Source of the DNA: Antrihabitans stalactiti
Lineage (GTDB): Bacteria > Actinomycetota > Actinomycetes > Mycobacteriales > Mycobacteriaceae
Length of the DNA: 64,000 nt
Assembly (NCBI RefSeq): GCF_012932915.1
Contig: NZ_VCQU01000004.1
Location: 186,001 to 250,000 of the forward strand
Direction of reading: 5' to 3'
The notes below the pieces were generated by a model. The model made no database searches and was not told the origin of the DNA. It saw only the letters and a list, made by a program, of their open reading frames with translations. Positions 4,661 through 27,218 of this stretch are shown piece by piece (within the stretch, counting starts at the first letter, position 1; the number at the start of each line of letters is the position of its first letter). The position numbers and the translations under genes were made by a program.

Positions 4661-4661
4661 C

Positions 4662-4776
4662 GAGCTGGGCGGTCGGGCCAGCGCGGCCTGGACTGAGCCA
4701 AAGGAGCGAGGAACGAGCGACGACGCGAGGGAAGGCCGCGCGTCAAGGCCCGACCGAGCCAGCGAGTCAACAACAC
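4662..4776. repeat. Palindromic repeat, copy A
   Basis: The outer arms are GGTCGGGCC (4671-4679) and GGCCCGACC (4747-4755). The inner arms are GCGCGGCCT (4681-4689) and AGGCCGCGC (4733-4741). A 43-nt centre, beginning GGACTGAG and ending GCGAGGGA, lies between them. Weaker outermost pairing (GAGCTGG with CCAGC) extends the stem. It follows the PPA1309 stop codon directly and is in tandem with copy B at a spacing of exactly 115 bp. It could act as a two-way terminator between the convergent genes. Confidence 0.85.
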
Positions 4777-4890
4777 GAGCTGGGCGGTCGGGCCAGCGCG
4801 ATCTGGACTGAGGAGCGAGCCGCGAGCGTCAGCGAGCGGAGCGACGAGGGAAGATCGCGCGTCAAGGCCCGACCGAGCCAGCGAGTCAAC
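4777..4890. repeat. Palindromic repeat, copy B
   Basis: The outer arms GGTCGGGCC (4786-4794) and GGCCCGACC (4866-4874) are identical to copy A. The inner arms are GCGCGATCT (4796-4804) and AGATCGCGC (4852-4860), so two base pairs differ from copy A on both sides and pairing is kept. The centre is GGACTGAGGAGCGAGCC, then a GAGCG-rich stretch ending GACGAGGGA. Its right flank overlaps the stop codon of the PDZ/S16 protease gene (4886-4888). Confidence 0.85.
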
Positions 4891-5926
4891 AAGACGGCGC
4901 GTCGCCGCCGCTCCGGATCGATTCGAGGGACTTCACGGCGCTTTCCAGCGTGTCGACCTTCACCAAACGAAGTCCGTCGGGTGTGCGTTGCTTGGCTTCG
5001 TCGCAGTTGTCGGCGGGAACGAGGAAGGTCGAGGCTCCTGCGTCGCGCGCGGCGATCATCTTGTACGGGATGCCGCCGATCGGGCCGACCTCGCCGCACG
5101 AGTTGATGGTCCCGGTGCCGGCGATGAATTCACCGCCGCTGAGTTCTCCGGTGCTGAGTTTGTCGACCACGGCCAGGCTGAACATCAGGCCGGCTGACGG
5201 TCCGCCGATGTCGGCGAGGTTGAAATCAACGGTGAACGGGATCTGCGGTTTCTCGTCCGGTGTGATCCCCAGGTAGCCCTTGTCTTCGGCGTTCGGCCGC
5301 GCGCCGAGTTTGATCGCTGTCGACGTCTCGACTCCGTCGCGTTTGAAACGCACAGTGACTTCGGTGTCCGGCTTGGCGTCGCCGACGATCTTCTGCACTC
5401 CGCATACCGTGCTCACGTCGACGTCGTTGATGCTGATCAGCTCGTCGCCTTTGCGCAGGGCGTCTTTGGCCGGGCCGTCCGCGCCGACGTCGTCGATCAC
5501 CAGCGACACCGGGAAGTCGCCGAGACCCGCTTTGTCGAGGTAGTGCAGGGCGGCGAGCTCGGCGCTGTCCTCGGATTGCTTGAAGTCCGCTTCGTTGCCC
5601 TTTTCGATGTCTTCCTTGGACTTGTCCGGCGGATAGACCTCCGCGCGAGGCACCAGTCCTTGGCGGCCGCTCGCCCAGAATCCGAGGGCTTCGAAGATGG
5701 TGAGGCCGTCGCGGACCGACACAGTAGTCATGTTGAGGTTGCCGGTCGTCGGGTCAACCTGGGTGCCGTTGATTTCGACGACCGGCTTGTCGTCCACGAT
5801 GCCGAGGGTGTTGAACGTCGGCCCGGGACCGAGCGCGACGTAGGGGACCGTCAAGACGCCGCCGAGCACGCCCAACGCAACCACTGGTAACAACGCCACG
5901 AGCAAGGTGACCATCCGTCGACTCAC
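4886..5926 (-). CDS. PDZ domain and Lon-type (S16) membrane protease, YlbL/Rv3194c-like
   Basis: A 346-residue protein from GTG 5926 (VSRRMVTLLVALLPVV...); the same frame stays open upstream only as a shadow of the opposite-strand metalloprotease. One N-terminal membrane segment (about 5-27) is followed by a PDZ domain (about 130-205, with the KGDELISINDVDV core). A C-terminal S16 peptidase domain has the nucleophile Ser244 in GGPSAGLMFS and the general base Lys289 in GIPYKMIAARDAG, a 45-residue spacing close to that of Lon. The protease domain should face outside the membrane. The last codons and the stop lie in the flank of palindromic repeat copy B, so the C-terminal Ser-Cys may derive from the repeat. 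Confidence 0.9.
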   Translation of the reverse strand: MSRRMVTLLVALLPVVALGVLGGVLTVPYVALGPGPTFNTLGIVDDKPVVEINGTQVDPTTGNLNMTTVSVRDGLTIFEALGFWASGRQGLVPRAEVYPPDKSKEDIEKGNEADFKQSEDSAELAALHYLDKAGLGDFPVSLVIDDVGADGPAKDALRKGDELISINDVDVSTVCGVQKIVGDAKPDTEVTVRFKRDGVETSTAIKLGARPNAEDKGYLGITPDEKPQIPFTVDFNLADIGGPSAGLMFSLAVVDKLSTGELSGGEFIAGTGTINSCGEVGPIGGIPYKMIAARDAGASTFLVPADNCDEAKQRTPDGLRLVKVDTLESAVKSLESIRSGGDAPSC

Positions 5927-6040
5927 CCGGCCAGAGTAACCAGCATCGATACATCGGGCCTGGTCGCCTGGAAGTGTGTTCGCCGTCAGCGTCATCACGT
6001 GCGCGTCCAAACCGGGCATTGCCCTTGTACCGTTGACGCC

Positions 6041-7420
6041 ATGAGTGACTACCCGTTCGGATTCTCGAACCCCGGCGACGACCCGGACCGCAAGAAAGAC
6101 GGCCCCGGTCAGGGGCCCGGCAACGACCCGTTCGGATTCGGAGCAGGTGGTTTCGACCCCGCGCAACTCGGTCAGATGCTGACGCAGTTCGGTCAGATGC
6201 TGAGCAACATGGGCAGCGCGACCGCGCCCGGTGCGTCGGCGAGTCCGGTGAACTACGACGTTGCCAAGCAACTTGCCCGCCAGCAGATGGGCAACTTTTC
6301 GCCGGTCTCTGCGAGCCAGAGCAAAGCCGTGGCGGACGCGAGCCATCTCGCCGAACTGTGGCTCGACGGCGCGACGACGTTGCCTGCAGGCGCGTCGAAG
6401 ACCGTCGCTTGGACGCCGAACGACTGGGTCGAAGGCACCCTCGACACCTGGCGCCGACTGTGTGATCCGGTTGCCGAGCAGATCGCGGGAATGTGGTCGC
6501 AGACGCTGCCGGAAGAAGCACAACAGCTCGCTGGTCCGATGCTCGGCATGCTCGGCCAGATGGGTGGGCTTGCGTTCGGTTCGCAGCTCGGTCAGGCGCT
6601 GGGTCAACTGTCGAAAGAGGTCCTGACCTCGACAGACATCGGCCTGCCGCTCGGGCCTACCGGTGTCGCGGCATTGCTTCCCGAGGCGATCGCCACGTTC
6701 AGCAAGGGCCTCGAACAGCCCGAGCAAGAAATTCTTGTGTTCATCGCGGCGCGTGAAGCGGCGCATCAACGACTGTTCCACCACGTGCCGTGGCTGCGTC
6801 AGCGCGTTCTCGACACCGTCGCCGATTACGCCCGCGGCATTCGAATCGACATGTCGGCCATCGAAGAGGCCGCGTCGGGCATCGATCCCGCTTCGTTGAT
6901 GGACCCGTCCAAACTGCAGGAGATCCTGGGCCAAGGCGCCTTCGAGCCGCAGACCACACCGGAGCAGACGCAAGCGCTGGCACGATTGGAAACGATGCTC
7001 GCGCTGATCGAGGGCTGGGTCGAGACAGTTGTTGCGGACGCGGTCGGTGACCGACTGCCCGGTGGCAATGCGTTGAGCGAGACCTTGCGGCGCCGCCGCG
7101 CGACCGGTGGTCCGGCCGAGCAAACCTTCGCAACCTTGGTCGGCCTCGAACTGCGCCCGCGCAAGCTTCGTGAAGCCGCGGCGCTGTGGCGGCAACTGAC
7201 CGACGACGCTGGCATCGACGGTCGCGACGGTGTGTGGGCGCACCCAGATCTACTGCCTGATCCGAGCGATCTCGACGACCCGACTGCATTCATCGCGCGC
7301 GTGGTGAAGGGCGACGAGAACCTCTTCGACGACCCGATTGCGCAGCTGGAGGAAACCGAGAAGCGCGAGGCCGCCGAGCGCGAGAGCAAGGCCAACGACG
7401 AGAAGACCGGCGACGAGTGA
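6041..7420 (+). CDS. Zinc-dependent metalloprotease, DUF2342 family (Rv3195-like)
   Basis: A 459-residue soluble protein. ATG 6041 was chosen because MSDYPFGFSNPGDDP begins the typical Gly/Pro/Asp-rich low-complexity N-terminus; a GTG 42 bp upstream is in frame but has no support. Around residue 238 the sequence EILVFIAAREAAHQRLFHHV carries an E-x-x-H core of the kind used for zinc in this family, though the first ligand of a canonical HExxH is replaced by Arg. The family was once labelled F420-associated or putative hydrolase. Its substrate is unknown. The gene overlaps the downstream SDR gene by 1 nt (TGATG). Confidence 0.85.
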   Translation: MSDYPFGFSNPGDDPDRKKDGPGQGPGNDPFGFGAGGFDPAQLGQMLTQFGQMLSNMGSATAPGASASPVNYDVAKQLARQQMGNFSPVSASQSKAVADASHLAELWLDGATTLPAGASKTVAWTPNDWVEGTLDTWRRLCDPVAEQIAGMWSQTLPEEAQQLAGPMLGMLGQMGGLAFGSQLGQALGQLSKEVLTSTDIGLPLGPTGVAALLPEAIATFSKGLEQPEQEILVFIAAREAAHQRLFHHVPWLRQRVLDTVADYARGIRIDMSAIEEAASGIDPASLMDPSKLQEILGQGAFEPQTTPEQTQALARLETMLALIEGWVETVVADAVGDRLPGGNALSETLRRRRATGGPAEQTFATLVGLELRPRKLREAAALWRQLTDDAGIDGRDGVWAHPDLLPDPSDLDDPTAFIARVVKGDENLFDDPIAQLEETEKREAAERESKANDEKTGDE

Positions 7421-8235
7421 TGGGCTTGCCGCTCCCTGCGCCCGATCGGACAGCTCTCGTCACCGGCGCGTCGTCGGGAATCGGCGAAGCCATTGCGCGT
7501 GAGCTCGCAAGGCGCGGTCACGGGGTAACGCTGGTGGCCCGACGTGCCGAACGACTTGCAGAATTGGCAAGCGAGATAAGGGAATTGGGAGTTCGAGCCG
7601 AAGTCGTTGCGGCCGATCTCTCCGACCGGCACGCCAGGGCCGCACTGCCAGGCCGAATCGCCGATCTCGGGCTCGACGTCGACATTCTGGTGAACAACGC
7701 GGGGCTGTCCACGCTCGGTCCGGTTGCGAAGTCGGACCCCGAAGCCGAGATGAACATGATCGAGGTCGATGTGATGGCCGTCGCAGATCTGTGCAGTCGC
7801 TTCCTCCCCGGCATGGTCGAGCGCGGCACCGGCAGCGTGCTCAATGTCGCGTCGACCGCCGCATTTCAGCCGTTGCCCGGCCAAGCCGGTTATGCCGCAG
7901 GAAAGTCGTTCGTCCTCTCCTATACGGAGAGCCTCAGCGGCGAGCTCAAAGGCTCTGGCGTCAACGCGACCGCCCTCTGCCCCGGTCCGGTCGACACCGG
8001 CTTCGGAGAGACCGCAGGCTTCGCCAAGGAAGACGCCGAAGCAGCGCTCCCCAGCTTCATGTGGGAAACCCCCGAAGCCGTTGCGAAGGCCGCCATCTAC
8101 GGCCTCGACAAAGGTCACATGGTCGTCATCCCCGGCGTAATGAACCGCGCCGCTTCGGTTTTCGGCCAGATCGCCCCGCGCCGGCTCTTGGTCCCCCTCC
8201 TCGCCCGCCGCCACCCGGGGCTGAAGGCGGAGTAG
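7420..8235 (+). CDS. Short-chain dehydrogenase/reductase
   Basis: A 271-residue classical SDR. The cofactor motif TGASSGIG is near residues 12-19 and is followed by LVARR, whose Arg residues suggest NADP preference. NNAG is near 90, the catalytic Ser is in NVASTAAF, and Tyr/Lys are in GYAAGKSFVLSYTESL (about 157 and 161). ATG 7420 overlaps the stop of the metalloprotease gene (TGATG), so the two are probably co-translated. The C-terminal extension after residue 225 is basic (RRLLVPLLARR). The substrate cannot be told. This gene is extra relative to the M. tuberculosis order. Confidence 0.85.
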   Translation: MGLPLPAPDRTALVTGASSGIGEAIARELARRGHGVTLVARRAERLAELASEIRELGVRAEVVAADLSDRHARAALPGRIADLGLDVDILVNNAGLSTLGPVAKSDPEAEMNMIEVDVMAVADLCSRFLPGMVERGTGSVLNVASTAAFQPLPGQAGYAAGKSFVLSYTESLSGELKGSGVNATALCPGPVDTGFGETAGFAKEDAEAALPSFMWETPEAVAKAAIYGLDKGHMVVIPGVMNRAASVFGQIAPRRLLVPLLARRHPGLKAE

Positions 8236-8288
8236 GCCGCGCGCTCGGCGCACCGTCACCCGACCGTTTTCTGGATGCCTGCGAGGCC

Positions 8289-8316
8289 TGTGGATAATCG
8301 CCGAGACTGTGGATAA
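8289..8316. promoter_or_regulatory. Pair of consensus DnaA boxes
   Basis: TGTGGATAA occurs at 8289-8297 and again at 8308-8316 in the same orientation, each a perfect complement of TTATCCACA, with 19 bp from start to start. They sit in the 132-bp gap between the SDR stop and the ThiF-like start, about 50 bp before the latter. No origin features (dnaA, dnaN, AT-rich unwinding element) are nearby. Binding is inferred from sequence only. Confidence 0.45.
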
Positions 8317-8367
8317 CTAGGGCTTTCGAAGGGTTCGGTTGACCCCGGATATTGAATACTGCGTCCT

Positions 8368-9246
8368 ATGTCGTCGCCTGCCAACCATCCTGTGCTCGAT
8401 CCACGTGTGACCGTTCTGCTTCGGCCCAGTGGTTCGGTGCAACTCGGGTGGGATCCGGAGACAGCGCTGCTGCTGCATCCCCCGCCACATGTCGAGGCGG
8501 CGACGTTGGAGAAGGTGCTGCGGTTCGTCGACGGCAAGCATTCGCGTCCACAGATCATGTGGTGCGCAGCCGAGCACGGTATCGAACCTGCGGATATGTC
8601 GGCAATCCTCGCAGAGCTCGAATCGGTCGGGCTGCTCGACGACGTCGAGGCGCGGGCGACCCGGTCGCTGTCGATGCGCATTCATGGTCGAGGCCCGCTC
8701 GCTGACGCAATCCACGCCGGACTTGCCCGCATGGGTGTGCAATTGACCAGGTCCAGGGCTGCGGGGCACGAGGATGTCAGCGGGTGGCGAACGGATTTCG
8801 TCGTCCTCGCCGACGATCTGGTACCCGATCCGCGCGTCGTGAACGACCTGGTCAAGCTGGAGATTCCGCACCTGCAAGTGCGTATTCGGGATGGGAAAGG
8901 TGTTGTCGGTCCGCTGGTCGTACCGGGCCGGACCAGCTGTTTGCGGTGCGCCGAACTCACCCGGTGCGGGTTCGACGAGGAGTGGCCCCACGTATCGGCG
9001 CAGATGCTCGGCAGAGTTGGATATGCCAGTCCGGCAACGATTCTCGCGACCGCGGCGGTCGCACTCGGGCAGCTGGAAGCGGTGCTCAGCGGTCCGCCTC
9101 GCGCGGCGCCGGCGAGCCTGGATGCGACGCTCGAAATCGATCTCGAAACGCACAAGTCCGGCATTCGGCGCTGGCCTCGGCACAATCTGTGCGAATGCTG
9201 GCAATCAGGGACCACGTTGGCTGTTGATCATGATCATCAGCCATGA
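8368..9246 (+). CDS. ThiF-like / TOMM leader-binding family protein (Rv3196-like)
   Basis: A 292-residue protein. The N-terminal 100 residues resemble a small winged helix (DGKHSRPQIMWCAAEHGIEP). The rest resembles the ThiF/E1-like fold used in cyclodehydratases, with two cysteine pairs likely binding zinc: Cys191 and Cys194 in TSCLRCAELTRC, and Cys275 and Cys277 in HNLCECWQSG. No ATP-binding GxGxxG loop is obvious, so it is probably not an active E1 enzyme. The stop is 7 bp before the ABC1 kinase gene, which suggests one operon. No TOMM precursor peptide was seen nearby, and the function is unknown. Confidence 0.7.
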   Translation: MSSPANHPVLDPRVTVLLRPSGSVQLGWDPETALLLHPPPHVEAATLEKVLRFVDGKHSRPQIMWCAAEHGIEPADMSAILAELESVGLLDDVEARATRSLSMRIHGRGPLADAIHAGLARMGVQLTRSRAAGHEDVSGWRTDFVVLADDLVPDPRVVNDLVKLEIPHLQVRIRDGKGVVGPLVVPGRTSCLRCAELTRCGFDEEWPHVSAQMLGRVGYASPATILATAAVALGQLEAVLSGPPRAAPASLDATLEIDLETHKSGIRRWPRHNLCECWQSGTTLAVDHDHQP

Positions 9247-9253
9247 TGGATGA

Positions 9254-10603
9254 GTGTCCGAGATTGAGCGCAAACGTTCAGCACGCACCCGCAAGTTGGC
9301 GAGGATTCCGCTAGGGATCGCCGGTCGTGCCGCGGTGGGTTACGGCAAGAAGCTCGCAGGTGGCGACAAAGGCGAGATCAACGCGCAATTGTCGGCTAAG
9401 GCCGCCGACCAGCTGTTCGCCGTACTCGGCGAACTCAAGGGCGGCGCGATGAAGTTCGGGCAAGCGTTGAGCGTCATGGAAGCGGCGATTCCCGACGAGT
9501 TCGCCGAGCCCTACCGCGACGCGCTGACGAAGCTGCAGGCGGAAGCGCCGCCGATGCCGACGAAGACCGTCCATCGGGTGCTGGACCAACAACTCGGCAC
9601 CAAGTGGCGCGAGCGCTTCAAGTCCTTCGACGACACCCCGACCGCGTCGGCGAGCATCGGGCAGGTCCACCGTGCGGTGTGGTCGGATGGGCGCGACGTT
9701 GCGGTGAAGGTCCAATATCCCGGCGCGGATGAGGCGCTGAAGGCGGACCTCAAGACGTTGGGGCGTTTTGCAAACCTCATGGCGTCGGTTATGCCGGGCA
9801 CAGATGTCAAACCCGTCCTCGCAGAACTCAACGCGCGCATGGAAGAAGAACTCGATTATCGGATCGAGGCCAACAACCAACGCGCATTCGCGAAGGTGCT
9901 CGATGGCGATCCGGACTTCGCGGTGCCGAAGGTTGTGGCCAGCGCGCCGAAGGTGGTTGTCACCGAGTGGATGACGGGAACCCCGCTGTCGAAGGTCATC
10001 AAGCACGGCACTGTCGAGGAACGAAACCGCGCCGGCAGGTTGTTCGCGTTGTTCGCGTTCTCGTCACCCGCGCGGGTCGGGCTGCTGCACTGCGATCCGC
10101 ATCCGGGCAACTTCATGCTGCTCGATGACGGTCGGCTCGGCGTCATCGATTTCGGTGCCTGCGCGCCGATGCCGAACGGACTTCCGCCCGCGCTCGGCAG
10201 GATGGTGCGGCTGGCATCCGAGGAGCGCTTCGACGAGCTGATCGACCTCCTGCAGAACAACAACTTCGTCCTCGCAGGCAAGACGGTCACCGATCGCGAA
10301 ATCGACGAATACCTACGGCCGTTCACCGATCCGATCAAGAGCGAGTCGTTTCATTTCACACGGTCGTGGCTGCAGAAGGTTGCAGGAACGGCGGCAGACT
10401 TCAACAGTTCGCAGTTCAAGACCGCGCGGTCGCTGAACTTGCCGCCTGAGTATTTGATGATTTTCCGGGTGCTGCTCGGTGGCGTCGGGATCGGCGCGCA
10501 GCTCGATGCCGAGGCCGAATACATGAAGATCCTGGCGGAATGGCTTCCGGGATTCAACGAACCGGAAGACGACGACGACGACCGTGCGCGAGTTTTACCC
10601 TAA
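9254..10603 (+). CDS. ABC1/AarF/UbiB family atypical kinase (Rv3197/MABP1-like)
   Basis: A 449-residue protein from GTG 9254. It has all hallmarks of the UbiB-type kinase-like fold: the KFGQ motif (MKFGQALSVM, about 75), the Ala-rich loop ASIGQVHRA replacing the Gly-rich loop, the lysine in DVAVKVQYPG, the catalytic loop LHCDPHPGNFML, and metal-binding DFGA. In mycobacteria the homologue (MABP1) has been linked to quinone metabolism and to macrolide tolerance within the WhiB7 neighbourhood. The last six codons form the 5' arm of a hairpin, and the TAA stop lies in its loop. whiB7 is convergent. Confidence 0.85.
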   Translation: MSEIERKRSARTRKLARIPLGIAGRAAVGYGKKLAGGDKGEINAQLSAKAADQLFAVLGELKGGAMKFGQALSVMEAAIPDEFAEPYRDALTKLQAEAPPMPTKTVHRVLDQQLGTKWRERFKSFDDTPTASASIGQVHRAVWSDGRDVAVKVQYPGADEALKADLKTLGRFANLMASVMPGTDVKPVLAELNARMEEELDYRIEANNQRAFAKVLDGDPDFAVPKVVASAPKVVVTEWMTGTPLSKVIKHGTVEERNRAGRLFALFAFSSPARVGLLHCDPHPGNFMLLDDGRLGVIDFGACAPMPNGLPPALGRMVRLASEERFDELIDLLQNNNFVLAGKTVTDREIDEYLRPFTDPIKSESFHFTRSWLQKVAGTAADFNSSQFKTARSLNLPPEYLMIFRVLLGGVGIGAQLDAEAEYMKILAEWLPGFNEPEDDDDDRARVLP

Positions 10604-10625
10604 GACGGGTAAGACTCGCGCACGG
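10582..10625. terminator. Two-way hairpin terminator between ABC1 gene and whiB7
   Basis: CGTGCGCGAGTTTTACCC pairs with GGGTAAGACTCGCGCACG (18 bp with one G-T wobble) around the loop TAAGAC. The loop contains the TAA stop of the ABC1 gene, and the whiB7 stop (10631-10633) is 6 bp beyond the other arm. It is related in sequence to the hairpins at 41157-41199 and 50650-50692. Confidence 0.75.
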
Positions 10626-10630
10626 GCCGA

Positions 10631-10966
10631 TTAGGCAACGCTCTTGCGCGGGCGGCCACGGGGCCGCTTGCGTGCGATGACGACACCCTGATCGAAGATC
10701 TCGCCACCCCACACACCCCACGGCTCTGCCCTGTCGAGAGCTGCAGTGAGGCACTGCTTACGGATCGGGCACTCGGCGCAGAGTGCCTTTGCCTGATCCA
10801 GTTGCGCCGGGCTCTCGGCGAACCACAGGTCTGGATCGGCTACCCGGCAGGGCAGCTCGTCCAGGCGCGGCGTTGCAGCTGCGACACCGATTACCGTGGA
10901 ATCGCTTGTGGCGAAACGGCTTTCGATATCATCTCGGCATGTCGTCCGGATTGTCGCGGTAGACAC
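10631..10966 (-). CDS. whiB7: WhiB7 redox-sensitive transcription factor
   Basis: A 111-residue Wbl protein from GTG 10966, chosen because AAGGAG lies 6 nt upstream. The [4Fe-4S] ligands are Cys40, Cys63, Cys66 and Cys72. The EPWGVWGGE turn (81-89) that contacts sigma-A is followed by a C-terminal AT-hook RPRGRPRK (101-108), which separates WhiB7 from other Wbl proteins. The family activates intrinsic antibiotic-resistance genes together with SigA by binding AT-rich DNA next to the -35 box. It is preceded by a 430-nt leader with an upstream ORF and an intrinsic terminator, so it is likely controlled by attenuation and by autoactivation. Confidence 0.95.
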   Translation of the reverse strand: MSTATIRTTCRDDIESRFATSDSTVIGVAAATPRLDELPCRVADPDLWFAESPAQLDQAKALCAECPIRKQCLTAALDRAEPWGVWGGEIFDQGVVIARKRPRGRPRKSVA

Positions 10967-11060
10967 GTCGTTCTCCTTAGCTCTCGTGCATCGGTTCTTT
11001 GTGTGCTGCTTTGGATTTGTTGCGAACCGGTGCCGGGCTGGAGACCAATGAGATGGGTCC

Positions 11061-11099
11061 AAAAATATGGCCACGATTCGCGATGTGCGATCCGTGGCC
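11061..11099 (-). terminator. whiB7: Intrinsic terminator (attenuator) in the whiB7 leader
   Basis: On the minus strand GGCCACG pairs with CGTGGCC, with inner GATCGC/GCGAATC pairing, and the 3' arm is followed by ATATTTTTGG. It lies 95 nt upstream of the whiB7 start and 18 nt after the upstream-ORF stop. A competing segment, ATCCGTG (11156-11150), inside the end of the upstream ORF is complementary to CACGGAT (11096-11090) of the terminator's 5' arm and could act as an antiterminator. Confidence 0.8.
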
Positions 11100-11116
11100 G
11101 AGAAATGCGCTGGAAG

Positions 11117-11326
11117 CTACCGAACTGGACTTCGGTGTCGACTTCCGATCACGGATGCGCGGTGTGCGTGACGAACGCGGAGTGCTCGCAATGCGAGTGC
11201 TGCCGGACGCCACTCCACCGTGGGTGCGTCTGCTGCTGCGAATACGCGCAGAGAGCTGCCCTGGGTGGCGACGAGCGACGGCTTCATTCCAGCGGGTTCA
11301 ATCACGCTGTAGATGCTCTTGTTCAT
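11117..11326 (-). CDS. whiB7 leader upstream ORF (uORF)
   Basis: A 69-codon frame starting MNKSIYSVIEPAGMK. Its ATG at 11326 is preceded by AAAGGAGG at a 9-nt spacing, one of the best ribosome sites in the window. The second half is rich in Ala and Arg (10 Ala in a 29-residue stretch). It ends with TAG 18 nt before the attenuator hairpin. By analogy with mycobacterial whiB7, its translation is expected to set whether the terminator forms: stalling should favour read-through. The peptide itself resembles no known protein and may have no function of its own. Confidence 0.7.
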   Translation of the reverse strand: MNKSIYSVIEPAGMKPSLVATQGSSLRVFAAADAPTVEWRPAALALRALRVRHAHRASVIGSRHRSPVR

Positions 11327-11401
11327 TTCTTCGCCACCTCCTTTTCGTGGATCGGTTTCGACATCGAGTGCACGCGGTTGATAACCCCGGGTGCTCAGAC
11401 C

Positions 11402-11439
11402 AGGGTAAGCAAGATCAGCGAAGCACACAACTTATTTTT
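11402..11439 (-). promoter_or_regulatory. whiB7: whiB7 promoter with WhiB7 AT-rich element
   Basis: On the minus strand an A-rich block AAAAATAA (11439-11432) lies next to a -35 box TTGTGT (11430-11425). A 17-nt spacer and a -10 box TACCCT (11407-11402) follow. An AT-rich block just upstream of the -35 is the established binding signature of WhiB7 with SigA, so whiB7 probably activates itself. The promoter begins 12 bp after the uvrD2 stop codon. Confidence 0.7.
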
Positions 11440-11450
11440 GACCTGCGGTT

Positions 11451-13568: not shown

Positions 13569-13605
13569 TGCAGCCCGTGCCGACAAGGGCCCTTCCCGCC
13601 GTAGC

Positions 13606-14751: not shown

Positions 14752-14755
14752 ACAT

Positions 14756-14775
14756 TTACTATGCGCGCTTACTAT
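14756..14775. promoter_or_regulatory. Direct repeats upstream of the SRPBCC-EVE-marR operon
   Basis: TTACTAT occurs twice (14756-14762 and 14769-14775), separated by GCGCGC, just upstream of the SRPBCC start codon and 54 bp before the mycoredoxin start. The position suits a regulator site for the divergent genes, possibly MarR itself, but MarR sites are usually inverted repeats, so this is tentative. Confidence 0.3.
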
Positions 14776-14828
14776 TTACCTGTCAACGCGTAGGGAACAT
14801 CCCCGTCGAAAACGGCGTTACATCCCCC

Positions 14829-15988: not shown

Positions 15989-16014
15989 GCCCCCGAGCCT
16001 ATTCGCCGTACCCG

Positions 16015-17076: not shown

Positions 17077-17176
17077 CGCACACCCCCTCGGCAATCATTG
17101 ACATCGGCTGGGAGCCTAGTCGCTTTGTCTGGGGGCGGGGGTAGTGCTCGCGGATTAGACCCGGCAATGTGTAGGT

Positions 17177-17572: not shown

Positions 17573-17580
17573 CCGTCGGC

Positions 17581-20500: not shown

Positions 20501-20889
20501 TGTTCGGCGAGCAGCCGGCCCGCGTAGGAATGATAGGTACCGACTTCGGGATCCGCGTCCGCAATGGTCGTGCGAAGTTGACCTGTCGGATCCAGTTCGC
20601 GAACGAGCGGAGACCCGGCAAGCCGCGCAAGCCGGGTACGGATACGAGTCGTCAGCTGTTGTGCGGCTTTTCTCGTAAACGTAAGGCCGAGTACCTGATC
20701 CGGCTCGACCAGCTGGTTAGCCACCATCCACACGACCCGCGCCGCCATCGTCTCCGTCTTGCCCGCACCTGCCCCGGCGACGACGAGCGTCGGGCCAGGC
20801 GGTGCGGCAATCACTGCGGCCTGCTCGGGAGTCGGCGAGGGCATTCCGAGCGCCTGGGCAATTGTCTCCGGCGATACCAACGACTTCAT
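17581..20889 (-). CDS. adnB: AdnB subunit of the AdnAB helicase-nuclease
   Basis: A 1102-residue protein from ATG 20889, fixed by the ATGA overlap with the adnA stop. The N-terminal UvrD-like motor has Walker A AGAGAGKTE (Lys44), DEYQDTGHAQ as motif II, and VGDPMQSIYGWRGA as motif III. The C-terminal RecB-family nuclease contains RIDAVFAEPGGGWTVVDWKT with the D...DxK catalytic set. AdnAB resects double-strand breaks in mycobacteria. The homologue (Rv3201c) is 1101 residues, so the gene is full length. It is co-translated with adnA. Confidence 0.93.
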   Translation of the reverse strand: MKSLVSPETIAQALGMPSPTPEQAAVIAAPPGPTLVVAGAGAGKTETMAARVVWMVANQLVEPDQVLGLTFTRKAAQQLTTRIRTRLARLAGSPLVRELDPTGQLRTTIADADPEVGTYHSYAGRLLAEHGLLLPMEPSATLLTPTQYWQLAFQEVCAWDGELDTERLPSTVTEAVIALAGQLAEHLVDADDLREAHTELEKLVHTLPAGPRQRGGPTQELLRILETQRARIELLPLVDRLDEALARRGALDFGRQMSMAARLASEHTDVGRAERQRFRLVLLDEYQDTGHAQRVLLSALFGGGEDRRLAVTAVGDPMQSIYGWRGASAANLPRFATDFPCAPGKPAPTLQLSTSWRNPPEALELANLVAEPLRYKGVPVDELVARPNAIAGDIRLAVTDTVDSERHWIAEQIAREYASSKAAGEAPPTSAVLVRRNADTAPIAEALRAKGLPVEIVGLGGLLATPEVGDVVAMLRLIAEPGAGSAAVRVLTGARWQIGIADLRALSRRANELSIRHAAAGATLDGPAALHDALDDQLPGEQSEDAGLADAIADPGGHERYSARGFARITALAKELASLRERIGQPLTELVAEVERVTGIGVEAQARRSGVGFGVGREHLDAFADVVSGYANDSAATIGGLLAFLSAADEVENGLEPGEVEVAPDRVQILTVHSAKGLEWEVVAVPHVVRGVFPSATASGTWLGALAELPPSLRGDRAIEGEAAEGVPVLQLDDLNDRAALDDAIKRHKAALGRRRMEEERRLFYVAVTRTERALYVSAHHWGQSGAEPKGPSEFLDELLQVVPESRIRKDPAPEPGATNPMTESPVSAVWPRDPLGSRRTAVEAGEHAVRREIARLVEGVEADDADPEGWAADVDALLAERAAALDHRADVVLPSQLSVTQLVDLKADPDELAARLRRPLPYPPNPLARRGTAFHAWVERRFRATRLLDLDELPGAADTGASADTDLVQLQDRFLESVWAERSPIEVEVPFETSVASTVVRGRIDAVFAEPGGGWTVVDWKTGAEPSASEVDAVVVQLAVYRIAWARLISSQTGEPEADVLDRVSAAFHYVRSGRTVSPDELPDIAALSRLVDAAGHLPAV

Positions 20890-23800
20890 CGGTCCGTCAC
20901 CGCCCGGCCGGCGTCTTGCGCAGGGCAACTCGTCGACACCGGACAATGCCTGCAGCCGTCGTTGACGACGGCGAGGAACTGCGGCCCGCGCGTCGCCGCA
21001 GCCACCTCATGAATGGTGTTGCGCCACTGCTCGATACCGGCCTCGTCGAGCGCCGACTGCATCCGCTGAGTCGCACCGTCTTTGTTGTGTGCCTTCGCAA
21101 CGAACACAAGGCGGCCACCGCCCGGCGCACCTGGCGGCTCCCCCTGAATTCCGCCGACCGCCCCGGCAACTTGGTAGGTCGCGAGCTGCGCATGATTCTG
21201 CGCATCCTGCTTGCTCGTCGGCGACTTACCGGTCTTCACGTCGATGATCACCGGGCGACCGTCAGGGTCGTGCTCCAACCGGTCGATGCGACCGCGAAGC
21301 CGGACCGCAGGCTCGCCCTCTTCGCGCGCGGGCAGCACACAATCGACCTCGACCTCGAGCCCCGCTTCGGTCAACTCGGTGCGCGAGTTCTGCAACCATG
21401 CCGTGAAGTTGTCCAACATCTCGCCAGTGCGCTCCAGTTCGTTGCGCGAATACCAGTCCGAGCCCAGATCCAGTGACTCCCAAGCCTTGTCGAGCGCGTC
21501 TCGGACTTCGTCGACAGGAATTCGACCGGCCACGGCCTGTACGAGGGTGTGCACTAGTGTGCCCGTGATCGCGCGCGTGTGCTGGCCGTCGGTGCCACCG
21601 TTTCGCTCCAGCCCCCACCTGAGTGGACAGCGAGTCAGCATGTCGACGTTCGAGGGCGACAGCGGAACGGGCCCGTCCTCGAATCCCCACAGCGGTTCGT
21701 CGGTGCTCGCGCCGGCCAATCCGTACCAGTGGTCGGGATGCGCGAATTTCACACCCGCATCGGCCAACCGGGCGAGTTGTACCGCGGCTCTGCGGTGTCG
21801 TTCCGGGTCATTCGCAGCGACCTCTGCATCGCACACGACCCCGCGGAGTTCCGCGACCAGCGCCGTCATTGCGAGCAATCTGTTGTTCGCATCCCGCGAG
21901 CGACCGATCGATTCGTCGGTCTCAGCGCTGCCGGCAGTGCCGAGGAGTTCGTCGATGAACCGCGACGGCGTCAAATCTCTATCGCCGGAAGCCGATTCGA
22001 CCGCAGTGACTAGCAGCATGCGACGGGCACGGCTACACGCCACGAGCAGCAGCCGACGTTCGTCGGCCAACAAAGGTGCGGTCCGGGAGACGCGCTCACC
22101 TGCAACGGTCCGTACGCCGGACGTCATGTCGACCAGCGCGTCCGTGCCAAGCAGACTCCCTCGCGTCCGCAAACTGGGCCACAGCCCTTCCTGCACAGCA
22201 GCAACGGCGACGACGTCCCACTCGCGCCCAGCGGCGGAGTGCGCACTGAGAATGGTGACCGCCTCACCGGCAACCGCCTGCGCCCGCGACTCGACGGGTA
22301 TTTCTTGGCGCACAAGGTAATCCACGAAGCCCTCTAGGGTGGCCCTCGGCAGCCGGTCGACGTAGTTCGCAGCAGCGTCGAACAGCGCGACAACTGCGTC
22401 GAGATCGCGATCTGCCTGCGCACCGACCGTCCCTCCTCGACTCGACGCGGTGGCCCATTTTCGCTCCAACCCGCTGGACTGCCATGCCGCCCACAACACG
22501 TCTTCGACACCGCCACCGTTGTCGACGACTTTGCGCGCCCGGGCCAGGGTCTTGAGCACGCGCCGGATCGCGGCTGCCTCGACGTCGGTGAGCTGACCGA
22601 GCAACTCGTCGTCCGACGACGACACCAGCAACAACCGGGCCAGTTCGGTCGACTCGCGATCGCCACCCGCAGCCAATTCGGCTCTGCGCAGGCCGCGGCG
22701 CATGCGGCGCAGGCTCACCGGATCCGCACCGCCCAGCGGACCGGCCAGCAGCGCGAGCGCCTCTTCGCCCGAGAAATCGTCGGCGTGCAGCGCCCGCAGG
22801 ACGAGCAACAGCCACGCGGCACCCCGTTGGCGTGACAAGGGCAACTCCGACGACGCGGTGGTGACCGGAACACCCGCGGCGGCCAGAGCGCGACGCAGCG
22901 GCGCGACCGACAGCGGCACGGACCGGACGATCACGGCCATCTGCGACCAAGGCACTCCATCGGCGAGATGCGCGCGCCGCAAGGTGTCTGCAATGAGCAC
23001 TGCTTCCTTCGCCACAGTGCGCAGTACGTGTACCAGCGCGGCACCGCGCGGCGCCTCGTCTATTGCGACCGCACCTCTGTGCGGCGGCACGCCTGGCAAC
23101 CGCCCGGCAAGGCGGCCGACCAACTCCGTGATCTCGGGAGCCGCACGACGATTGGCGCCCAAGATGATTCGACGCTCGGACTCGGAGTCGGCCAACCCGG
23201 ACAGAAACGCTGGATCCGCACCGCGGAACGTGAAGACTGCCTGGTCGGGATCACCCGCGACCGCGGTGACCGCCGTCGCCGTACCGATCAGCCGGACCAA
23301 CTGTGCGGCTTGTGGATCGAGATGTTGGGCGTCGTCGACCAGCAGGTATCGGATGCGCGCACGTTCACGCGCGAGCAACTCGGGGTCGAGAAAGAAGGCA
23401 GACAGCGCCGCGCCGACCAACTCGGCTGCGTCGAGAGCCGGTGCCGTCGCTTCGGGGGCCTCGACACCGACCGACCAGCGCAGCAGCGTCGACTGCTCGT
23501 AGCGTGTGGCGAACTTGCCTGCCGCCACCCACTCCGGGCGAGAATGTTTGCGGCCGAGCCGCACGAGATCCTCTGGACCGAGCCCACGTTCGGCCGCGCG
23601 CAGCATCAAATCCCGAAGTTCTGTCGCGAACCCCGCCATGCCGAGCGCCGGGCGCAACTTCTCCGGCCACATCTCGCCGCCGTCTTCCAGATCGCCTGCC
23701 AGCATCTCCCGCAGCACAGCGTCTTGCTCAGCGCTCGTCAGCAACCGAGGCGGCGGATTTCCATGCGCGGCCGCCTGCAGGCGAAGGACCGCGAATGCGT

Positions 23801-24152
23801 ACGAGTGCACGGTGCGGACCAGCGGTTGGCGCGTTGCGCTTGCGGCGATATTCGCATCGCTCGCCAACAGACCCGATGTGATCGCCTCCCGCACCGCGGC
23901 GGCTGCGCGACGCGAATGCGTCAGCACCAGAACGGACTCCGGATCGCAACCCGCCGAAATCCGGTCGATCGCGACATCGACAAGGAGCGAGGTTTTCCCC
24001 GTACCCGGGCCGCCGAGCACCTGCCACGGATGCCAACCGACATCCGTGCCATCGGCGCGAAACAACCGACTCTCGTCCTCGCTCCACACCCGCGCGGCCA
24101 CGGGCGCAGGCGTACGCGGAATCAGCCGCGTCGATCGCTCCGTGTCAACCAT
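20886..24152 (-). CDS. adnA: AdnA subunit of the AdnAB helicase-nuclease
   Basis: A 1088-residue protein. ATG 24152 (MVDTERSTRLIPRTP) was chosen over a longer open frame. The motor domain has Walker A GGPGTGKTS (Lys53) and motif II LLVDDAQHLDP, where DDAQ replaces the usual DExx. The C-terminal nuclease has GRIDRLEHDPDGRPVIIDVK. An iron-sulphur staple is formed by a Cys in TRCPLRWGLE and the C-x2-C-x5-C set in CRHCPVSTSC. It forms a heterodimer with AdnB for end resection. Confidence 0.93.
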   Translation of the reverse strand: MVDTERSTRLIPRTPAPVAARVWSEDESRLFRADGTDVGWHPWQVLGGPGTGKTSLLVDVAIDRISAGCDPESVLVLTHSRRAAAAVREAITSGLLASDANIAASATRQPLVRTVHSYAFAVLRLQAAAHGNPPPRLLTSAEQDAVLREMLAGDLEDGGEMWPEKLRPALGMAGFATELRDLMLRAAERGLGPEDLVRLGRKHSRPEWVAAGKFATRYEQSTLLRWSVGVEAPEATAPALDAAELVGAALSAFFLDPELLARERARIRYLLVDDAQHLDPQAAQLVRLIGTATAVTAVAGDPDQAVFTFRGADPAFLSGLADSESERRIILGANRRAAPEITELVGRLAGRLPGVPPHRGAVAIDEAPRGAALVHVLRTVAKEAVLIADTLRRAHLADGVPWSQMAVIVRSVPLSVAPLRRALAAAGVPVTTASSELPLSRQRGAAWLLLVLRALHADDFSGEEALALLAGPLGGADPVSLRRMRRGLRRAELAAGGDRESTELARLLLVSSSDDELLGQLTDVEAAAIRRVLKTLARARKVVDNGGGVEDVLWAAWQSSGLERKWATASSRGGTVGAQADRDLDAVVALFDAAANYVDRLPRATLEGFVDYLVRQEIPVESRAQAVAGEAVTILSAHSAAGREWDVVAVAAVQEGLWPSLRTRGSLLGTDALVDMTSGVRTVAGERVSRTAPLLADERRLLLVACSRARRMLLVTAVESASGDRDLTPSRFIDELLGTAGSAETDESIGRSRDANNRLLAMTALVAELRGVVCDAEVAANDPERHRRAAVQLARLADAGVKFAHPDHWYGLAGASTDEPLWGFEDGPVPLSPSNVDMLTRCPLRWGLERNGGTDGQHTRAITGTLVHTLVQAVAGRIPVDEVRDALDKAWESLDLGSDWYSRNELERTGEMLDNFTAWLQNSRTELTEAGLEVEVDCVLPAREEGEPAVRLRGRIDRLEHDPDGRPVIIDVKTGKSPTSKQDAQNHAQLATYQVAGAVGGIQGEPPGAPGGGRLVFVAKAHNKDGATQRMQSALDEAGIEQWRNTIHEVAAATRGPQFLAVVNDGCRHCPVSTSCPAQDAGRAVTDR

Positions 24153-24211
24153 GGGACGTAGTCCACCATGCCGGTCCGACACATTCCCCGTCGCTGCGCT
24201 CGCCGCGTCCA

Positions 24212-24934
24212 CTAAAAATGGGCCACCGTATTCGTCGCCCACGCAGCGCCACCAACCGGTCGATAGACCACGACGTTGCCGTCGTTCTGAACCACCAAGC
24301 GACTGCCCGGGTTTCGGTCCGTCCGCGAACTCCACAACGGCGTGTTCCATTTGTCATAGGCGACCAAGTTGCCGTCGTGCTGCATCGCGAGCCTCCCGGG
24401 TTCGTGTCGGTCCGTGCGCGAGGACCACAGCGCGCGTCCGCCTCGGTATACGACGACATTGCCGTCGACCTGGAAGGTGAGCATCGTTCGACCGTCCTGG
24501 GAGACGAGTTCATGGCCGGGATACAACGCCTCGTCGGAACCGATCGTGTCGCCCGACGCCGGCCGTGCGTTCGTGTACGACGCCCATGCCGCACCACCGC
24601 CGGGTCGATAGATCACCACGTTTCCGTCGTCCTGAACGGCGAGATGGCTACCCGGATTGCCGTCCGTGCGCGCGCTCCACACGGGGTGGTTCCCGGCGTT
24701 GTAGACGACGAGATTGCCGTCGGGCTGCATCGCGACGCGCCCTGGCGACTGATGGCCGGTTCCCGAGAACCACACAGCGACGTTGTCGCGGTAGAACCAC
24801 AGATTGCCGTCGTTCTGGTACGCCAGCGCACACCGACCGTTCGGGGAATACAGCGCTTGCATCGGCGCGAGCGCCTCGCCAGCTCGGAGGGTGTCTCTGA
24901 CCGCGGCTGGGGCGAAATTCGAGTCCGAATGCAC
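24212..24934 (-). CDS. Tandem monocot mannose-binding (B-type) lectin protein
   Basis: A 240-residue protein from GTG 24934 (an ATG at 24973 would add 13 residues but crowds the divergent lipV start). It consists of two beta-prism-II lectin domains, each with three QxDxNxVxY-type sites: YQNDGNLWFY, MQPDGNLVVY, VQDDGNVVIY in the first, and FQVDGNVVVY, MQHDGNLVAY, VQNDGNVVVY in the second. Five of the six match the mannose-binding consensus; the first has Trp for Val. There is no clear signal peptide, membrane anchor or enzyme domain. Two tandem lectin domains with nothing else is the layout of lectin-like bacteriocins (LlpA/putidacin L1 type), but a simple carbohydrate-binding role is equally possible. 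Confidence 0.8.
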   Translation of the reverse strand: MHSDSNFAPAAVRDTLRAGEALAPMQALYSPNGRCALAYQNDGNLWFYRDNVAVWFSGTGHQSPGRVAMQPDGNLVVYNAGNHPVWSARTDGNPGSHLAVQDDGNVVIYRPGGGAAWASYTNARPASGDTIGSDEALYPGHELVSQDGRTMLTFQVDGNVVVYRGGRALWSSRTDRHEPGRLAMQHDGNLVAYDKWNTPLWSSRTDRNPGSRLVVQNDGNVVVYRPVGGAAWATNTVAHF

Positions 24935-24997
24935 GCATCCACTGTAAGGAACTAATGCCAAAGCAGCCCGCATGCCGATCGATCTACAGTGGTCTGC

Positions 24998-25759
24998 GTG
25001 CAGATCTACGAGTTCGGGCCGGCGGACGGTCCTGCAGTATTGGCGTTGCACGGTGTCTCGGGGCACGGCAAGCGCTGGGAGTCGTTCGCCAACGAACATC
25101 TTCCCGAGGCTCATGTCATTGCGCCGGATCTGCGTGGTCACGGGCGGTCGCCGTGGGAACCGCCGTGGAACTTCGAAACCCTTGTCGACGATGCCGTCGA
25201 GGTGATCGGCGATCGTGGTCCGGTGCTGCTGGTCGGCCATTCGTTCGGCGGCGCAATAGGCCTGCATCTCGCTGCCCGGCATCCTGAGCTCGTTCGCGGA
25301 CTTGTACTGCTCGATCCGGCGATCGCGTTGCCAGGTCCGGAATTGCTCGAAGTCGCCACGGCAACTGTCGAATCACCGGACTACACCGATCTCGCCGAGG
25401 CGCGGTCGGAGAAGGTGCACGGTTCGTGGGGCGATGTCGACGAGCGGCTGATCGACGCAGAACTTGCCGAGCATCTGATTCCCACCCGCAACGGTCGAGT
25501 CGGGTGGCGGATGAGCGTGCCTGCGATCGTCGCCTTCTACGGCGAACTCGCCCGCGAATTCGTTCTTCCCGCACCAGATCTGCCGACCGTTCTGGTCCAG
25601 GCGATGAAGGTGCAGCCGTCGTACGTGACTCCGCCGTTTCTGGCCGCCTTGCGCGAGCGGCTCGGCGACAACCTGACGGTCCACCATTTCGACTGCGACC
25701 ACATGGTTGCGTTCGCTAAACCTAGCGAGACAGCCGCCGTGATCCGCAAGCTCTTGTAA
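24998..25759 (+). CDS. lipV: Alpha/beta hydrolase (LipV-like)
   Basis: A 253-residue hydrolase from GTG 24998 (VQIYEFGPADG); another GTG is three codons upstream. The oxyanion block is LHGVSGHGKRW, the nucleophile Ser is in LLVGHSFGGAIG, an acid is expected in the region before the cap return, and the catalytic His is in FDCDHMVAF. Position next to adnA and the alkyltransferase-like gene matches lipV (Rv3203). The natural ester substrate is unknown. The stop overlaps the next start by 1 nt (TAATG). Confidence 0.8.
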   Translation: MQIYEFGPADGPAVLALHGVSGHGKRWESFANEHLPEAHVIAPDLRGHGRSPWEPPWNFETLVDDAVEVIGDRGPVLLVGHSFGGAIGLHLAARHPELVRGLVLLDPAIALPGPELLEVATATVESPDYTDLAEARSEKVHGSWGDVDERLIDAELAEHLIPTRNGRVGWRMSVPAIVAFYGELAREFVLPAPDLPTVLVQAMKVQPSYVTPPFLAALRERLGDNLTVHHFDCDHMVAFAKPSETAAVIRKLL

Positions 25760-26082
25760 TGGCTACGACCGAGGCGGAGGTGGAGCGCGTCCGCGAGTTG
25801 GTCGCGTCCATCCCCCGCGGTGCGGTCGTGACCTACGGTGACATTGCCGCTGCCGCAGGACTTTCCACGCCCCGAACCGTCGGGTGGATCATGCGGACCG
25901 ACTCCGCCGACCTACCGTGGCATCGCGTCATCGGGGCTAGTGGGCGGCCTGCGGCGCATCTGGCAAGCAAGCAACTCGCGCGACTGGCGGAAGAAGGCGT
26001 GCGCATCCACGACGGGCGCGTCGACTTACGTTCGGCACGCCACGATCTCATGCACTCCGACGCCGTGCCCCCGGACCGATAA
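25759..26082 (+). CDS. Alkyltransferase-like (ATL) DNA-binding protein, MGMT family
   Basis: A 107-residue protein. It keeps the helix-turn-helix of MGMT (VVTYGDIAAAAGLSTPRTVG), but the active-site PCHR is PWHR (residues 53-56), so it cannot accept the alkyl group. ATL proteins of this kind bind O6-alkylguanine and hand the lesion to nucleotide excision repair. It is co-translated with lipV by a TAATG overlap. Its 3' end overlaps convergent hxlR-type gene by 35 bp. Confidence 0.88.
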   Translation: MATTEAEVERVRELVASIPRGAVVTYGDIAAAAGLSTPRTVGWIMRTDSADLPWHRVIGASGRPAAHLASKQLARLAEEGVRIHDGRVDLRSARHDLMHSDAVPPDR

Positions 26083-26518
26083 TCGCAACCGTGTCGCGCG
26101 CCGAGAGCGCCACGCCGGAGCCGACAGGCCGGACTACCGCCTCGACCGACTCACCTGTCGAGCGCTCCCGAACCACCAGCGCCGGACCGTCGTCGTCGGC
26201 ACAGTGCCGATCGCCCCACTGCAGCAACGAGATCAGGATCGGAAAGAGGTCCATACCCTTTTCCGTCAACCGATACTCGTTGCGAGTTCGGCTGCCGGCC
26301 TCGCGATACGGCTCGGTCCGAAGTACGCCTGCCGCAACGAGTTTGCGCAATCGATCGGCGAGAATCGGTTCCGAGACCCCCATGTGACGGCGCATGTCGT
26401 CGAAGCGGCGCACCCCGTTGAACGCCTCACGCAGTACGAGCAGTGTCCACTTCTCCCCGATCACATCGAGGGTTCGTTGGATCGCGCAGTTGTCGGTGCT
26501 GGTCTCCAACCATTCCAT
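26048..26518 (-). CDS. HxlR family transcriptional regulator
   Basis: A 156-residue winged-helix protein from ATG 26518 (a GTG two codons upstream is possible). The typical N-terminal Cys is in TDNCAIQRTLDVIGEKW, followed by the DNA-binding part FDDMRRHMGVSEPILADRL and the wing EAGSRTRNEYRLTEKG. The C-terminal 60 residues are longer than in minimal HxlR proteins and might bind a ligand. It is divergent from a thioesterase gene across 45 bp that carry a perfect inverted repeat, so it very likely controls both. Confidence 0.88.
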   Translation of the reverse strand: MEWLETSTDNCAIQRTLDVIGEKWTLLVLREAFNGVRRFDDMRRHMGVSEPILADRLRKLVAAGVLRTEPYREAGSRTRNEYRLTEKGMDLFPILISLLQWGDRHCADDDGPALVVRERSTGESVEAVVRPVGSGVALSARDTVAIIGPGARRRSA

Positions 26519-26530
26519 GCGCACAGTCTA

Positions 26531-26555
26531 GCTAACTTCTGACTTCTAAGTTAGC
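26531..26555. promoter_or_regulatory. Inverted-repeat operator between hxlR-type and thioesterase genes
   Basis: GCTAACTT (26531-26538) and AAGTTAGC (26548-26555) form a perfect 8-bp inverted repeat with a 9-bp spacer. The surrounding CTAGCTA copies extend the symmetry. It lies between the two divergent start codons, in unusually AT-rich DNA, as expected for a HxlR-family operator. Confidence 0.65.
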
Positions 26556-26563
26556 ATCTAGCT

Positions 26564-26965
26564 ATGCAACTTTCCGAGCTCTCCCAGTTCAGCGCCTTCG
26601 CCACCGCCTCCGGATTCATCGTCGACGAAGCCAGCGGCGCCCGCGTCGTCGGGCATATCGACCTCAGCGAAGACCACCACACGCCGTGGGGCGTCGTCCA
26701 CGGCGGCGTCTACACGACCGCGGTAGAGTCCGCCGCGAGCGTGGGCGCCAGCCTGGCAGTGGAGGACAAAGGCCAGTTCGCGGTCGGCGTCCACAACGCC
26801 ACCGACTTCATGCGGTCGATGAAAGCCGGCCGGGTCGACGTGGTCGCCGAACCGCTGCAGCAGGGCCGGGTCCAGCAGTTATGGCTGGTGACCATCACCT
26901 CCACCGACACCGGCAAGACCGTCGCGCGCGGTCAGGTCAGGCTGCAGAACGTGCCCAAAGGCTGA
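26564..26965 (+). CDS. PaaI-type hotdog thioesterase
   Basis: A 133-residue hotdog-fold protein. The active-site block HHTPWGVVHGGVYTTAVESA carries the VHGG-x-x-x-x-x-x-E/D pattern of PaaI/4HBT enzymes that hydrolyse acyl- or aryl-CoA thioesters. The second strand set is DFMRSMKAGRVDVVAEPL. Divergent from and probably controlled by the HxlR regulator. The acyl group is unknown. Confidence 0.85.
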   Translation: MQLSELSQFSAFATASGFIVDEASGARVVGHIDLSEDHHTPWGVVHGGVYTTAVESAASVGASLAVEDKGQFAVGVHNATDFMRSMKAGRVDVVAEPLQQGRVQQLWLVTITSTDTGKTVARGQVRLQNVPKG

Positions 26966-27124
26966 CTTCTCCCACGTTTTGCCGACCTCGCGATCCCTAT
27001 AGGCAACGCGAAGTCAGCAAAACCGCCGCGACGTCGCGAGAATCGACGAGAACCGACTGGCGCATACCTGCTTCCTGTGAGGTCCGCGTGCCATGGGAGT
27101 CTGGACCGACGACTGGACAACACC

Positions 27125-27218
27125 GTTTGCGGGCCCGCGCGGTCTGGACTGAGGAGCGAGCCGTGAGCGCTAGCGAGCGGAGCGACGAGGGAAGACCGCG
27201 CGTCGTAGGCCCGCAAAC
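27125..27218. repeat. Palindromic repeat, copy C
   Basis: The outer arms are GTTTGCGGGCC (27125-27135) and GGCCCGCAAAC (27208-27218). The inner arms are CGCGCGGTCT (27136-27145) and AGACCGCGCG (27193-27202). The centre GGACTGAGGAGCGAGCC...GCGACGAGGGA is nearly identical to that of copy B 22 kb away, while both arms have changed with pairing retained. It lies in the gap between the thioesterase and the mobA-moeA gene and has no stop codon in the mobA-moeA frame. Confidence 0.85.

Follow-up and report, generated by a model that had tools for sequence, protein, structure and literature searches.

What are the palindromic repeats that occur three times in a 64,000-nt stretch of the Antrihabitans stalactiti genome (the window; contig C21 of the 6.76 Mb source genome, G000), and how do their arms come to vary between copies and stay paired? 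A previous interpretation made from the bases alone (the sequence-only reading) placed all three copies correctly and quoted their stem arms without error. It took the fold, whether in RNA or in cruciform DNA, to be maintained or duplicated as one unit, and named three candidate roles: mobile REP-like element, two-way terminator and structured RNA. Its count of three is right for the window; the genome has about 12. Our answer is that the copies are probably non-autonomous mobile hairpins, moved in trans and recognised through their fold. The core pattern, GGACTGAGN{5,35}CGAGGGA, occurs three times in the window, where 0.02 matches are expected from shuffles, and eight times in the whole genome, which has no match to the reversed control pattern.

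The unit is approximately 115–135 nt long. An outer stem of about 10 bp (P1), with a bulge of about 5 nt on its 3' side, encloses an inner stem of about 10 bp (P2) ending CT/AG; after P2 come a conserved internal loop (CTGGACTGAGGAG/GACGAGGGAAG), a variable hairpin (P3), and then a second hairpin (P4) with a tail. In predicted folds the internal loop and P3 consist of one or two standard pairs alternating with GA/GA mismatches, which accounts for the GAGCG-rich look of the middle. P4 is present in 145 of 202 copies compared with 21 of 202 shuffled ones, has 92 distinct stems, and carries a GGA, GAA or GCA loop in 103 of the 145. The sequence-only reading had the arms and the core right and missed P4, with its GNA loop, and the ACA(G)-like tail. 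Its copy 3 (27125–27218) starts where it should and extends through the second hairpin (27221–27239) and the tail to about 27244. Copies 1 and 2 are a tandem with a period of 115 filling the gap between two convergent reading frames, one with its TAA at 4658–4660 and the other, on the minus strand, ending at 4886.

A covariance model (R1) was built from an alignment of 43 diverse copies (A2), none of them from the window, and recovers all three window copies with E values of 4e-11 to 3e-25. The model search of the genome and its relatives that had been recommended with the sequence-only reading did return more copies: within one genus there were 12 matches in G000, 15 in G001, none in G002 and one in G003. 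Among 61 genomes (G000 and 60 relatives) the element was matched in 12, with up to 26 copies per genome, and these counts are lower bounds because only 67 candidates were scored per genome. In 38 genomes selected as carriers, with 107 candidates scored in each, there are 1–81 copies per genome. A scan of a genome collection for GGACTGAGGAGN{5,35}GACGAGGGA gave at least 120 stretches, and all 80 titles among the matches listed are actinobacterial (Kribbella, Streptosporangium, Herbidospora, Actinomadura, Nonomuraea, Virgisporangium, Actinophytocola, Gordonia and others). Two of the four viral contigs with the core pattern fit the model (L154 and L156), and a link with phages is possible; copy 3 had no match in the phage and plasmid collections. 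The 133 pattern matches in these and the viral loci gave 126 distinct copies for the mismatch counts after removal of edge-cut and identical rows; six pattern loci (L071, L122, L131, L133, L153 and L155) were set aside by eye as spurious. Context and pairs were studied in a set of 160 copies, from which one partial match and 6 of the 57 matches of another model search were excluded. Later counts use the 202 copies kept after exclusion of identical and edge copies, 174 of which are non-tandem.

In A2, both partners vary in 20 of the 25 pairs, and 87.7% of the cells are paired. Covariation scores 0.539; the 500 shuffles give 0.154 and none equals the observed value, and slid partners give 0.096–0.120, a comparison in which the unslid version is favoured because the structure was drawn from one of the A2 sequences and their fold. 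The earlier claim that the stems covary beyond chance is borne out on a larger set of copies from outside the window, and the model matches and the covariation together rule out the option that the arms are plain, independent GAGCG-rich low-complexity sequence. Folded as RNA, the plus strand of the three window copies lies well below its shuffles (z -5.6, -6.4 and -6.3); the minus strand is weaker (z -3.5, -4.0 and -1.9), and DNA folds of either strand give z values of -2.6 to -4.2. Copying of one arm onto the other, or a cruciform, predicts equal numbers of G.T and A.C mismatches. The 126 copies have 49 G.T and 8 A.C at P2 positions 3–8, a range picked after the table had been seen. Model-based alignments, which are biased towards standard pairs and whose copies are not independent, gave ratios of 52:8 in P2 and 22:7 in P1 for 110 copies (overlapping the set of 126), and 25:2 in P2 and 11:2 in P1 for 69 copies from G000 and its relatives. 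Because of this excess the GGACTGAG strand is probably the one that folds, either as RNA or as single-stranded DNA. The same excess argues against pure palindrome repair and against the strand-neutral cruciform of the sequence-only reading, and we have rejected both. By eye, the fold fits neither a hammerhead nor a k-turn.

Relatives possess matching sites without the element. At the 4.66-kb locus the aligned flanks are 13 nt apart in G003 (240 in G000) and 54 nt apart in G002 (271 in G000), and copies 1 and 2 are both absent from the matching site in these genomes. At the 27.1-kb locus there are 53 nt in G002 and 60 nt in G001 where G000 has approximately 295, and copy 3 is absent there. In G001 the site of copies 1 and 2 (L172, about 1400–1490) is occupied by another palindrome, CTCGTGAGTCC...GACTCACGAG, with a P4-like hairpin and an AACAG tail after it; this may perhaps be a related element with another core.

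The insertion point could be read most closely in Kribbella, where the joined flanks of eight copies were sought in 15 genomes and all six sites that aligned are empty at the level of single bases. In one example the filled site consists of the flank ACGCGACAC, the element GGTCATGGGG...AATTCAATAC and the flank AGTCATGACC, and the empty site reads ACGCGACAC-AGTCATGACC. No target duplication lies outside the element in any of the six comparisons. GTCA[TC] stands at the insertion point in five of the six empty sites (the exception is L042), and it occurs in the 30 nt beyond the model end, comprising the end of the tail and the right flank, in 20 of 27 Kribbella copies compared with 5.6% of background intervals. 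The element's own 5' end in this genus is GTCATG. A match between the 5' end and the right flank, of other sequence, is also found in G034/G004, where 8 of 12 copies share at least five bases (1–2 of 12 further out). Taken over all lineages it is modest (72 of 174 copies, against 50 when permuted, largest 63) and comes mainly from Kribbella and G034/G004. In G024 (L301–L320) the surroundings of the copies are themselves alike, e.g. GGTCCACCTCC, as if the copies lay within or beside another repeat.

Copies are also found next to and inside one another. There are 17 pairs no more than 2.5 kb apart among the 160 copies in the fetched loci, some of them from related genomes and hence not independent: nine are direct (seven at a spacing of 114–125), eight head-to-head and none tail-to-tail. 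Two further head-to-head pairs occur at L296 and L298. All ten inverted close pairs (L047, L092, L115, L121, L143, L148, L194, L210, L296 and L298) are head-to-head, and between those of L092 and L148 lie other predicted genes, seen as gene calls alone. In some loci a full copy is preceded by 5' halves and followed by 3' halves (three and two, respectively, in L292); in others the halves flank it on one side only. The breaks are usually at or near the tip of P3. Such arrays would result if hairpin tips were entered repeatedly and sequence between direct repeats was later lost.

We propose that the GGACTGAG strand would fold into a long hairpin (P1, bulge, P2, purine internal loop, P3) followed by the short P4 and an ACA(G)-like tail, and that an enzyme or process supplied in trans would recognise this fold, as RNA or as single-stranded DNA. 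The unit would be inserted precisely, mostly between genes and without target duplication outside the element; in Kribbella insertion would be mostly 5' of GTCAT, a pentamer that recurs at the element's own 5' end. Hairpin tips of copies already in place, and junctions with such copies, would also serve as targets, giving rise to nested and tandem arrays, and selection for the fold would produce the paired changes in the arms. The earlier view of the fold as a unit that is maintained or duplicated whole is supported by the covariation of the 43 copies, the G.T excess and the relatives' sites without the element; these comparisons support a unit that would move and would also be under selection for folding on one strand.

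Several observations weigh against this explanation. Over all ten P2 positions the ratio of G.T to A.C is only 60:29, 19 of the 29 A.C mismatches being at positions 9–10, the helix end. The gap at the 27.1-kb locus differs by about 240 nt and the element accounts for only about 120, the remainder including a palindrome at 26976–27036. The repeated GTCATG of Kribbella might be taken for a target duplication of 6 bp, a reading that fails for L042 and for the nested copies. Agreement of the 5' end with the right flank was not seen in G024 or in G000/G001/G013 and is weak at the remaining named loci. No long version with a gene in its apex occurs among the unpaired core halves of the fetched loci, and an autonomous version was not seen. 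The mover was sought in the same 61 genomes as Y1 (PF01797), reverse transcriptase and IS110 genes, with attention to the seven that have at least six copies (G000, G001, G004, G013, G024, G034 and G017, the last only 66% complete). Y1 was matched in one of the seven (G024) and in none of the other six, G000 included; reverse transcriptase in four, with no match in G000, G017 and G024; and IS110 in five, not in G013 or G017 and in G024 only below the cut-off. PF01797 has matches in six of the 61 genomes, four of which are without element matches; genes of all three kinds are present in genomes without copies and do not track copy number. It is possible that the mover has since been lost or is of another family.

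One form of movement in trans would be that of the IS200/IS605 type, in which single-stranded DNA such as a PATE or REP is moved by a Y1 HUH transposase. Insertion of these elements beside a fixed tetra- or pentanucleotide, without target duplication, is described in PMC7290912. Our element resembles PATEs in its hairpins, in the lack of duplication outside the element and, in Kribbella (20 of 27 copies, five of six empty sites), in the pentamer at the insertion point that is repeated at the other end of the element; on the complementary strand ATGAC both flanks and ends it. The insertion feature was not seen in G024 or in G000/G001/G013, the hairpin layout is another one, and six of the seven high-copy genomes lack a Y1 match, leaving G024 alone with one. 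Moreover, the strand selected for its fold is the complement of the one expected to carry the left-flank target logic, and copies outside Kribbella share the sense of 50.9% of the coding length, which does not indicate a strand preference there. In Kribbella the strand carrying the copy has negative GC skew at 24 of 30 loci, and only 34% of the predicted coding length runs in the same sense as the copies; this bias possibly follows from the target GTCAT, whose complement ATGAC contains the ATGA of overlapping start and stop codons. A replication-strand bias was sought and not established: in the other lineages the skew is positive for 56 and negative for 41 of 100, and in the contig orientation test 380 and 3142 of 5000 shuffles were at least as high. 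We consider an IS200/IS605-type mover unlikely.

Dispersed palindromes are well known in other bacteria. The REP, BIME and REPIN sequences are geneless palindromes present in many copies between genes, arranged in tandem and inverted doublets and patchily distributed. The actinomycete element is likewise multi-copy, intergenic, geneless, found in doublets and patchy, and in this it resembles the REP/RAYT systems. A REP sequence, as defined in PMC3733652, is a palindrome of 20–40 bp with a GTAG or CGTC tag at one end, whereas the present element has 115–135 nt, a variable stem foot and its conserved core at the inner loop, and G000 has no match to PF01797, the family of the REP-associated transposase. 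Of the REP-like option, the mobile unit is supported and the strict REP is not, given the element's size and the lack of a Y1 match in G000.

A second possibility, which we judge to be quite unlikely, is that the palindromes are maintained by template switching during replication, one arm being copied onto the other in a repair-prone sequence with no need of selection. Such a process is described in PMC8794818, and the half copies do break at or near the P3 tip. It predicts as many G.T as A.C mismatches, contrary to the 49:8, 60:29 and 25:2 recorded above, and it leaves the precise insertions and the conserved core unexplained.

Very doubtful, too, is an RNA-copied, SINE-like element inserted by target-primed reverse transcription. 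The folded sense strand, the constant 3' hairpin and tail, the absence of target duplication and the 3' halves appended to tails agree with it, as does the presence of reverse transcriptase in four of the seven genomes with at least six copies. The lack of a match to this enzyme in G000, G017 and G024 does not. The half copies identified all adjoin a full copy, and no solitary truncated copies were found, but most of the loci searched had been fetched for holding a full copy, so that solitary ones would be missed. The IS200/IS605-like and RNA-copied alternatives are both special cases of the trans-moved hairpin that we favour.

Gene context was assessed with a simple codon-usage finder, a crude tool that leaves start sites uncertain. 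Two predicted genes flank 129 of the 160 copies; in 25 the midpoint falls within a predicted gene, and six are at the edge of a locus. The neighbours of the intergenic copies are both in the same sense in 37 cases, both antisense in 36, and mixed in 33 and 23, so the orientation of copies to genes is balanced, with no consistent sense. A scan of 4500–5000, a range that does not take in copy 3, revealed no terminator-like site, i.e. no GC hairpin with a U-tract in the sense of the gene. On these two grounds we reject a terminator or riboswitch, and the two-way terminator of the sequence-only reading is disfavoured. At gathering score no element copy matched Rfam in the window or in 18 loci, and copies 1 and 2 gave nothing even at E 10; between 26900 and 27300 there are five sub-threshold matches, the best, to a microRNA family (E 0.17, 23 bits, gathering 49), lying on the opposite strand and overlapping copy 3 at its end. 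The structured-RNA option keeps its strand-specific covarying fold, which together with GA mismatches and GNA loops recalls the RNAs of Rfam, and loses its assignment to a known Rfam family. A cis-acting RNA serving the adjacent gene as a 3' untranslated region stabiliser, terminator or leader would suit the strong predicted RNA fold and the many copies near predicted gene ends or starts, and is highly improbable given the balanced neighbours, the lack of a terminator-like site and the element's absence from matching places in relatives.

Classical MITEs, mobilised by DDE transposons, are short, non-coding and dispersed, with inverted-repeat arms. All of this holds for the actinomycete element, in which, unlike in MITEs with their target duplication flanking terminal inverted repeats, no such duplication was seen outside the element (six Kribbella comparisons), the arms vary between copies yet stay paired, and the fold is strand-specific. 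In its behaviour it is like the non-autonomous mobile hairpins broadly grouped as REP, PATE and MITE, and it lacks a tested defining feature of each.

The features of the three window copies are collected in Table 1. Copy 3 stands at the 5' end of a single reading frame (27217–28968) with MobA-like and MoeA-like domains (PF12804, PF03453, PF00994), and the start codon of this mobA-moeA type gene may consequently have been displaced. The palindrome at 26976–27036, just upstream of copy 3, is a second repeat with no obvious core in common with the element; four further matches to it are listed in the genome, two of them overlapping on opposite strands.

Table 1. Positions, in window coordinates, of the three element copies and their parts
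Feature	Position	Strand	Remarks and basis
Element copy 1	4662..4776	+	First of tandem pair; variant apex; core ends ACGCGAGGGA; R1 match 4667-4764, 43.3 bits; RNA fold z -5.55
Copy 1 P2 inner stem, 5' arm GCGCGGCCT	4681..4689, pairs with 4733-4741	+	Sequence, fold
Copy 1 conserved internal loop and apex, GGACTGAG...CGAGGGA	4690..4732	+	Pattern match
Copy 1 P1 outer stem, 3' arm GGCCCGACCG	4747..4756, pairs with 4670-4679	+	Fold
Element copy 2	4777..4885	+	R1 match 4782-4883, 71.8 bits; RNA fold z -6.36
Copy 2 P2 inner stem, 5' arm GCGCGATCT	4796..4804, pairs with 4852-4860	+	Sequence, fold
Copy 2 conserved internal loop and P3 hairpin	4805..4851	+	Pattern match
Element copy 3, complete (P1, P2, core, P3, P4, tail)	27125..27244	+	R1 match 27123-27225, 88.4 bits
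Copy 3 P1 outer stem, 5' arm GTTTGCGGGCC	27125..27135, pairs with 27208-27218	+	Sequence, fold
Copy 3 P2 inner stem, 5' arm CGCGCGGTCT	27136..27145, pairs with 27193-27202	+	Sequence, fold
Copy 3 conserved internal loop and P3 hairpin	27146..27192	+	Pattern match
Asymmetric 5-nt bulge between P2 and P1, 3' side; family feature	27203..27207	+	A2/R1 structure, fold
Copy 3 P4 hairpin GCCC-GAGCGAAGCGA-GGGC, GAA (GNA) loop	27221..27239	+	Fold; family-wide P4 test
Copy 3 3' tail AGACA, before target	27240..27244	+	Sequence; family tails (by eye) often ACA or ACAG

A literature search on hairpins of this sort (including PMC3733652, PMC3116915, PMC2817692, PMC3686654, PMC8794818 and PMC6006769) revealed no description of the family in the accessible parts of these papers, and none of six genus and phylum names sought occurs in the text of PMC3733652. 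A strand-specific, covarying two-hairpin mobile element present across many actinomycete genera was thus not found in the literature searched. Tentatively, it is possible that we are dealing with a previously undescribed actinomycete class of mobile nucleic acid which would be recognised as a folded single strand, would insert into hairpin tips or beside sequences like its own 5' end, and would be moved by an enzyme, new or encoded by the host, that belongs to none of the Y1, reverse-transcriptase and IS110 families. The comparison of G.T with A.C mismatches is a simple and general way to tell selection on a fold from the repair of a palindrome. Lying between genes and near gene ends, the copies can reshape gene borders, and their mover, if found, would show whether bacteria have another route by which hairpins are moved.

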